In this document: positions 55,482 to 58,777 of the stretch, in pieces
How positions within the stretch are numbered: the first letter of the stretch is position 1
Layout: each line of letters begins with the position of its first letter
Assembly: GCA_903910555.1 (NCBI GenBank)
Contig: CAIVZZ010000015.1
Location: forward strand, 62,001-126,000
Source of the DNA: an uncultured Gemmatimonadota bacterium
Lineage (GTDB): Bacteria > Gemmatimonadota > Gemmatimonadetes > Gemmatimonadales > Gemmatimonadaceae
DNA: 64,000 bases
Direction: 5' to 3'
Translations under genes and position numbers: made by a program
Notes under the pieces: generated by a model
The model's database searches: none
What the model was told of the DNA's origin: nothing
Seen by the model: only the letters and a program-made list of their open reading frames with translations

Positions 55482-56081
55482 ATGCTGCTCGTCATCGACA
55501 ACTACGATTCCTTCACCTACAACCTCGTCCAGTACCTCGGCGAGTTGGGTGAGAATCCGCATGTGATCCGCAACGACGCGATGCGCGTTGAGGAGATCGC
55601 GGCGCTCGCGCCGAGCGCGATCGTCATCAGCCCGGGGCCGAAAACGCCGGCCGAGGCGGGAATCTGCATTCCGCTTATTCAGCGCTACGGCGCTGCCATT
55701 CCGATTCTCGGTGTGTGCCTTGGCCATCAGTCGATCGGCGAGGCGTACGGTGGAAAGGTCGTGCGCGCGCCGCGCGGGGTGATGCACGGGAAGACGTCGA
55801 AGGTGACGCACGATGGGACCGGGTTGTTTGAGGGGGTGCCGAGTCCGTTGGAGGTGATGCGGTACCACTCGCTGGTAGTCGAGTCGTCATCGCTGCCGTC
55901 GTCCCTCGTGGTTACCGCCGCTGCGGTTGACGACAAAACCGAGATCCACGCCATGCGCCACGCGACGCATCCGGTGTGGGGCGTGCAATTCCATCCTGAG
56001 TCGATTTTGACTCAGCATGGGAAGAGGATTCTGCAGAATTTCCTGACCATGGCTGGAACAGCGGCGACTAGCGACTCGTAA
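55482..56081 (+). CDS. Glutamine amidotransferase subunit of anthranilate or aminodeoxychorismate synthase
   Basis: The 199-aa class I amidotransferase begins MLLVIDNYDSFTYNLVQYL. It has SPGPKTPAEAG, nucleophile Cys in GVCLGHQSIGEAYGG, and the His/Glu pair in QFHPESILT. It feeds ammonia to TrpE or PabB, and many bacteria use one protein for both, so I do not choose between trpG and pabA. No trpE/pabB partner is adjacent. It follows the TolC gene by eight bases. Confidence 0.92.
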   Translation: MLLVIDNYDSFTYNLVQYLGELGENPHVIRNDAMRVEEIAALAPSAIVISPGPKTPAEAGICIPLIQRYGAAIPILGVCLGHQSIGEAYGGKVVRAPRGVMHGKTSKVTHDGTGLFEGVPSPLEVMRYHSLVVESSSLPSSLVVTAAAVDDKTEIHAMRHATHPVWGVQFHPESILTQHGKRILQNFLTMAGTAATSDS

Positions 56082-56091
56082 TCGGCGATCT

Positions 56092-56156
56092 GGTGCATAG
56101 CGAATGGCGAGTAGCGCCGAGACGGTCTCCGCGCTACTCGCCATTCGCTATGCACC
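56092..56156. repeat. Near-perfect 65-bp palindrome
   Basis: The arms at 56092-56117 and 56131-56156 are perfect 26-bp inverted copies. The 13-bp centre is itself C-GAGAC-G-GTCTC-C, so pairing continues for five more bases after one C:C mismatch. It lies 11 bp after the amidotransferase stop in a 207-bp spacer. The arm contains GCGAATGGCGAGTAGCG, resembling dispersed intergenic repeats. There is no T run and no open frame. It may be a REP- or MITE-like element or a strong transcript-end hairpin. Confidence 0.85.
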
Positions 56157-56288
56157 CAATTGCCATTTACCGGTCGCCAGTCGCCGGTTCAAACCGATTT
56201 CTGCCAAAGCTTTGCGCTATGCTACCCCGCCGTTTATCTTCCGTGGCGTGGATTTTGCGTCCGCGCCGCCTCAGCCGAGGGTGCTCCA
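56157..56288 (+). promoter_or_regulatory. Spacer upstream of the kdsB operon
   Basis: These 132 bp must hold the promoter for kdsB and the genes after it. ACCGG and CCGGT flank a 10-bp centre near 56168-56187. TATGCT at 56218-56223 is the best -10 guess, without a clear -35. Nothing else is recognised. Confidence 0.3.

Positions 56289-58777
<2,489 letters not shown>

Follow-up and report, generated by a model that had tools for sequence, protein, structure and literature searches.

The 3' end of a trpG/pabA-like gene in the window, the 64,000 nt stretch of DNA analysed here, is overlapped by a long palindrome lying upstream of a kdsB-like gene, and long palindromes are expected to be unstable; the question is what this structure is, and how it came to be there. 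The first-pass annotation reported a near-perfect palindrome of 65 bp, which is exact: it reads GGTGCATAGCGAATGGCGAGTAGCGCCGAGAC-G-GTCTCCGCGCTACTCGCCATTCGCTATGCACC, having 26 pairs followed, towards the centre, by one mismatch and five more pairs around a single G. At 26 pairs, this uninterrupted run is the longest in the window, as against 10-11 in each of six order-2 Markov simulations of 64 kb. The limits originally given were too narrow, since these 65 bp are nested within an imperfect palindrome of 125 bp, the left arm of which takes in the stop and final codons of the upstream gene; with its terminal AAC/GTT motif the structure spans about 56057-56189 (see table). As RNA, positions 56058-56192 have a predicted fold of -100.1 kcal/mol, with a z score of -14.8 relative to shuffled sequences.

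Table. Features of the palindrome and its surroundings (positions are those of the window)
Feature	Position	Strand	Remarks
Upstream gene, glutamine amidotransferase (trpG/pabA-like)	55482..56081	+	Pfam GATase
TAA stop of trpG/pabA-like gene	56079..56081	+	inside heptad 3 of left arm
Left terminal motif, AAC plus AG	56057..56061	+	degenerate relative to the AACTRCG consensus just outside the arms in G000/G002
Whole imperfect palindrome	56062..56186	.	arms 62 nt, 85% complementary
Family core, 121 bp	56064..56184	.	covariance model R1: 118.9 bits on +, 115.2 on -
Left arm heptads	56064..56119	+	GCGACTA GCGACTC GTAATCG GCGATCTG GTGCATA GCGAATG GCGAGTA GCG...
Inner near-perfect palindrome	56092..56156	.	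31/32 pairs around G56124
Right terminal motif GTT (reverse complement AAC)	56187..56189	-	
Downstream gene, kdsB-like	56289..57068	+	Pfam CTP_transf_3; start 104 bp past the 121-bp core

Counting copies in the genome and its relatives, as had been proposed, revealed that the palindrome is one copy of a dispersed, hairpin-shaped repeat family of around 120 bp. A 131 bp query returned 21 BLAST matches in its own genome (G000; 3.2 Mb in 32 contigs), the closest being 89-91% identical over approximately 122-124 bp, and the combination of BLAST and a covariance model (R1, built from 19 copies) identified at least 17 full and four half copies there, all with unique flanks. The model also found at least 35 copies in the congener G010, at least 28 in G012 and at least about 26 in G002, these being lower bounds obtained by scoring the best 150 first-look candidates per genome. 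No copies were detected by the model in twelve other members of the genus, and G003 and G005 gave marginal scores only. An assembly artefact is ruled out, as the independent metagenome-assembled genome (MAG) G010 carries the same element 3' of the same trpG gene, and the family recurs at orthologous junctions across four genomes.

Centre-deleted forms of the element are also present, and half elements with a single arm (L102-L105 in G000, L235 and L245 in G010) look like deletion products of full palindromes. Several relatives' copies, including those at the end of contig G010:C78 and the start of G010:C47 (L175, L215), lie near contig ends; the contigs of metagenomes break at the palindromes or close to them, so draft genomes probably contain more copies than are counted.

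The named records containing the pattern are Gemmatimonadaceae MAGs, the isolate names of which include 'fen' (one) and 'Chersky' (one). In other genera of the family, hits are weaker and correspond to palindromes with different heptad units, GTGACTG among them; at L271, L274, L275 and L276, the units are GTGACTG, GTGATTG or GGTGAGT. This suggests that the heptad-palindrome architecture is commoner in the Gemmatimonadaceae than the GYGANNR family alone. Carriage by phage or plasmids was rejected: 50,697 phage and 72,556 plasmid records contained no match, and neither did viral contigs searched by pattern. Nothing in Rfam matched the palindrome above the gathering threshold, the sub-threshold matches being mainly to microRNA hairpins, and a search of the literature for bacterial genomes with long palindromes, or for Gemmatimonadetes with palindromic repeats, returned nothing on point.

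Each arm is composed of about eight degenerate heptads with the consensus GYGANNR. Across 91 copies, the fraction of self-matching positions is 49.8% at a lag of 7 and 0.42 at a lag of 14, and 0.22-0.38 at other lags (22-33% at those below 14); for the left arm in the window, the equivalent values are 54%, 39% and 16-32%. Cores in G000 are 97-129 bp long with paired ends, and have two interior dialects, GCGACTGGCGACTGGTAAATGG and GGGACGAGCGAAGCATGAGGGG, whilst G010 and G012 share the dialect GCGACGGGCGACGGGTGAGGGG. In the 14 nt flanking each arm on its outer side, AACTRC is present at 14 of 34 G000 ends and 15 of 32 G002 ends, relative to 0.25% by chance, giving copies in these two species conserved terminal inverted repeats of the kind that characterise ERIC and MITE elements; the AACTRCG motif is common to two interior dialects as well as to the two species. 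G010 and G012 ends have a weaker AAC-type motif only. At L195, on the reverse strand 3' of a stop codon, a 14 bp terminal unit, GAACTACAGGGACG, is present approximately four times in tandem outside the arm, and similar end repeats are found in G010 and G012 copies.

The elements are concentrated at the ends of genes. Of 79 copies, 34 lie between convergent, 13 between divergent and 32 between tandem genes, against 18, 37 and 204 of the 259 background gene pairs (p ~1e-14), such that convergent junctions account for 43% of elements and 7% of the background. In the 32 tandem copies, the median distance to the palindrome is ~11 bp from the upstream stop codon and ~80 bp from the next start, with the palindrome closer to the stop (p 3e-4); single distances are approximate, because genes were called with a basic scorer of codon usage trained on window sequence. 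This 3' end intergenic placement is that of REP sequences, which lie between genes that are convergent or point in one direction, as a rule <20 bp from a 3' end, and the termini of which sometimes supply stop codons (PMC3733652). Several other copies of the family, like that in the window, contain the stop codon of the upstream gene inside the third heptad. Further downstream in the window, at ~56225-56265 and upstream of kdsB, is a promoter- or leader-like motif, TATNTTNCGTGGCGTGGATTTTGCATC; it is recognisable in most of the congeners examined, the remaining intergenic sequence being different.

Sites were compared between species through flanking genes and through a dedicated search with 15 flanking proteins, the latter added to lessen the bias that arises because site sharing was partly ascertained among element-bearing loci. 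For about ten of the 17 G000 sites, one or more of the other carriers have a palindrome of the same family, or a remnant of one, at the corresponding junction; two of these sites were identified from a single flanking gene. At the junction in the window, trpG is followed by the element in G010, with contigs ending nearby, and by a short arm remnant in G012; in seven other congeners with the same gene pair the junction is 56-165 bp long and lacks such a palindrome. G000 copies and their orthologues in other species have a mean identity of 0.71-0.74, compared with 0.71-0.73 for non-orthologous copies, whilst the best identity between copies within a genome is about 0.83-0.93, and within G000 0.83-0.91. 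In the closer pair, G010 and G012, the identities of some orthologous copies are 0.89-0.97, those of others not above the random level. Orthologous sites in the more distant species are hence occupied by copies no closer than random, indicating that the sites are older than their sequences, although the sharing of sites could instead represent long functional retention. The earlier suggestion of a recent mobile insertion consequently holds loosely for the sequence, which is species-specific, but not for the site, which is also occupied in G010 and bears a remnant in G012.

No clean empty site was found at base resolution. The best case is L097, where a different 23 bp hairpin occupies, in G012, exactly the stop-to-stop interval that is filled by the element in G000; at L090 and L094, short hairpins resembling terminators are present in G006 and G015, which do not carry the family. 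Four pairs of copies related by vertical descent showed 31 pairing changes in a single arm and no compensatory changes. Covariation at 15 of 37 pairs in the cross-species alignment is for this reason better accounted for, we infer, by new palindromic copies arriving than by the arms co-evolving gradually.

The reading we favour, with a probability of roughly 0.6, is that these are non-autonomous, non-coding, MITE- or REP-like intergenic palindromes, copied into gene-end sites by a putative mechanism and then decaying. A family of palindromes of about 120-130 bp in four species of one Gemmatimonadaceae genus, their arms built of some eight GYGANNR heptads and, in two species, often flanked by AACTRCG, would generate new copies at the 3' ends of genes, mostly between convergent genes or a few bp past a stop codon, where some relatives have an ordinary terminator-like hairpin. 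Copies at such positions would do little harm, and might even supply the stop codon. Once in place they are inherited, lose their pairing as either arm gathers independent substitutions, and are truncated by loss of the centre or of an arm; in the longer term they would be overwritten or replaced by fresh copies of the current consensus of the species. The family and its anatomy, its placement, the orthologous sites, the turnover of sequence and the uncompensated decay are all observed, whereas the copying machinery is likely to be either an enzyme acting in trans or ectopic gene conversion, and any effect on the host is probably weak at most.

The main rival, which we consider possible but unlikely, is growth in place: a terminator hairpin would lengthen through duplication of 7-base units and template switching of one arm onto the other, and ectopic gene conversion, perhaps from breaks at extruded cruciforms, would homogenise the sites in a genome without any transposition. 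This would account for the coincidence of element sites with the short hairpins of relatives at L090, L094 and L097, and for the heptad architecture with its nested tandem units at the outer ends; it also suits the lack of target-site duplications, direct repeats flanking the 91 copies being no commoner than in shuffled flanks. However, an AACTRCG motif common to different dialects and species is a better fit to the ends of a mobile element, and recent orthologues have no compensatory changes. Mismatches have no centre-to-outside gradient of the type that template-switch correction might produce, leading us to reject correction proceeding outwards from the centre.

Growth in place is also favoured by long palindromes of the same build, but unrelated sequence, at the same junctions. 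G012 has GATGCGG-type palindromes of 219 bp and 168 bp at the L091 and L092 junctions, two places where G000 has the heptad element, and a 111 bp palindrome of the CCGGAAGC type at L098. A gene-end junction can carry the GYGANNR, GATGCGG or CCGGAAGC type in different species. The GATGCGG type, which occurs in multiple copies in G012 and G010, was also seen in G000 and G002; palindromes of this unit were observed at L282/L286 (G000:C13:16847-17057) and at L280, L284 and L288 in G012. G016 has a GTGGGA hexad family of its own. A 310 bp palindrome at L222 (G000:C30, ~44.2-44.5 kb; locus 1383-1692), of the unrelated GAGTGGGA type, is of the same GTGGGA-hexad kind as in G016 and lies 19 and 42 bp from the flanking genes. 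In total, G000 holds at least two palindromic repeat families besides the heptad element. A more speculative proposal, which we regard as rather doubtful, is that the Gemmatimonadaceae have a transposase-free process by which short tandem units are built up into long palindromes and spread, the architecture and site being inherited or re-created while the sequence is swapped; the swap would occur, for instance, when breaks at cruciforms are repaired, or through copying from one locus to another on a hairpin template.

An RNA hairpin with a function at the 3' ends of transcripts, kept by selection as a terminator, bidirectional terminator, 3' stabiliser or RNase III site, is less likely than growth in place, and to us improbable. 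The very stable predicted fold, the marked 3' end and convergent placement and the conservation of sites between species are all consistent with such a role, and at least four T in the six bases after the hairpin are found on the sense side in 22.5% of cases, compared with 2.9% antisense and 5.1% at random. Though modest, this enrichment leaves room for a role in termination at some loci. Against this, 13 of the 79 copies are between divergent genes, the element is absent from the window junction in the seven congeners, and the window hairpin is followed by the tail GTTCAAACC, which has no U-tract, with no terminator being predicted there. On the transcript strand of tandem copies, G.U pairs are no commoner than A.C (114 against 101, p 0.41); neither this comparison nor the absence of compensatory change supports selection at the RNA level, whether for RNase III or other processing, and on these two indirect tests selection on RNA pairing was rejected. 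An array bound by a nucleoid or regulatory protein, as proposed for the heptad/octad pairs of Geobacter metallireducens, would explain the heptad periodicity and conserved GYGA core, with analogous paired arrays on record (PMC2700814), but is very hard to reconcile with placement at 3' ends instead of promoters, species-specific dialects and the many degenerate or half copies.

Despite their expected instability, dozens of palindromes of 100-300 bp are held in these genomes. Homologues of the SbcD nuclease, scoring below the curated cut-off, are found in 18 of 18 genomes, carriers and non-carriers alike, so simple loss of the nuclease does not explain this tolerance and was rejected as its cause. 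As the sites persist between species whilst the sequences are rewritten within each genome, the family offers a natural system for studying where bacterial palindromic repeats come from, how they spread when no transposase is obvious and how they come to be fixed at the ends of genes. There is also a practical aspect, in that several contigs assembled from metagenomes end at one of these repeats or close to it.

In its behaviour, as a dispersed, multi-copy intergenic palindrome, the element merits the description 'REP/MITE-like' that it was first given. It resembles REP and REPIN sequences with RAYT transposases (the GTAG and CGTC families) in its 3' end placement and supply of stop codons, but these are 20-40 bp palindromes with an unpaired GTAG or CGTC tag, whereas the heptad-built elements are ~100-130 bp or more, with paired ends. 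The proposed search for a REP-associated tyrosine transposase found the Y1 (IS200-like) domain, PF01797, in none of 14 genus genomes, with controls positive in five; with the size and build also wrong, a REP/RAYT origin was rejected. Nor was a transposase flanked by copies, or an autonomous element with the same ends, found among the BLAST matches in the draft assembly of the window's own genome. ERIC (127 bp) and YPAL (168 bp) of the enterobacteria, the latter targeting sites within or adjoining dyad symmetry (PMC2229807), are similar in length, in their long palindromic stem-loops and in being intergenic and non-coding, but differ in phylum; the Gemmatimonadaceae family has no target-site duplications, no TA ends, and heptad-repeat arms. 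Given the lack of target duplications, and with no parent element among those BLAST matches, we do not claim membership of the MITE or ERIC classes. Tandem 7 bp units in inverted pairs are shared with the GGGAATC heptamer arrays of Xanthomonas, intergenic convergent pairs of which there are 70-75 cases per genome, 16% being between convergent genes (PMC4692102); here the unit and host are different, the convergent proportion is 43%, and the arms form one continuous hairpin with a nearly fixed 121 bp core. The 'global regulator sites' of G. metallireducens are likewise multi-copy inverted pairs of short tandem octads or heptads unique to one species, but have variable pair spacing and a regulatory interpretation (PMC2700814), in contrast to a continuous palindrome placed at 3' ends. 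In its workings the family is like ERIC, YPAL and REP, and in construction it resembles the paired heptamer arrays found in Xanthomonas and Geobacter.
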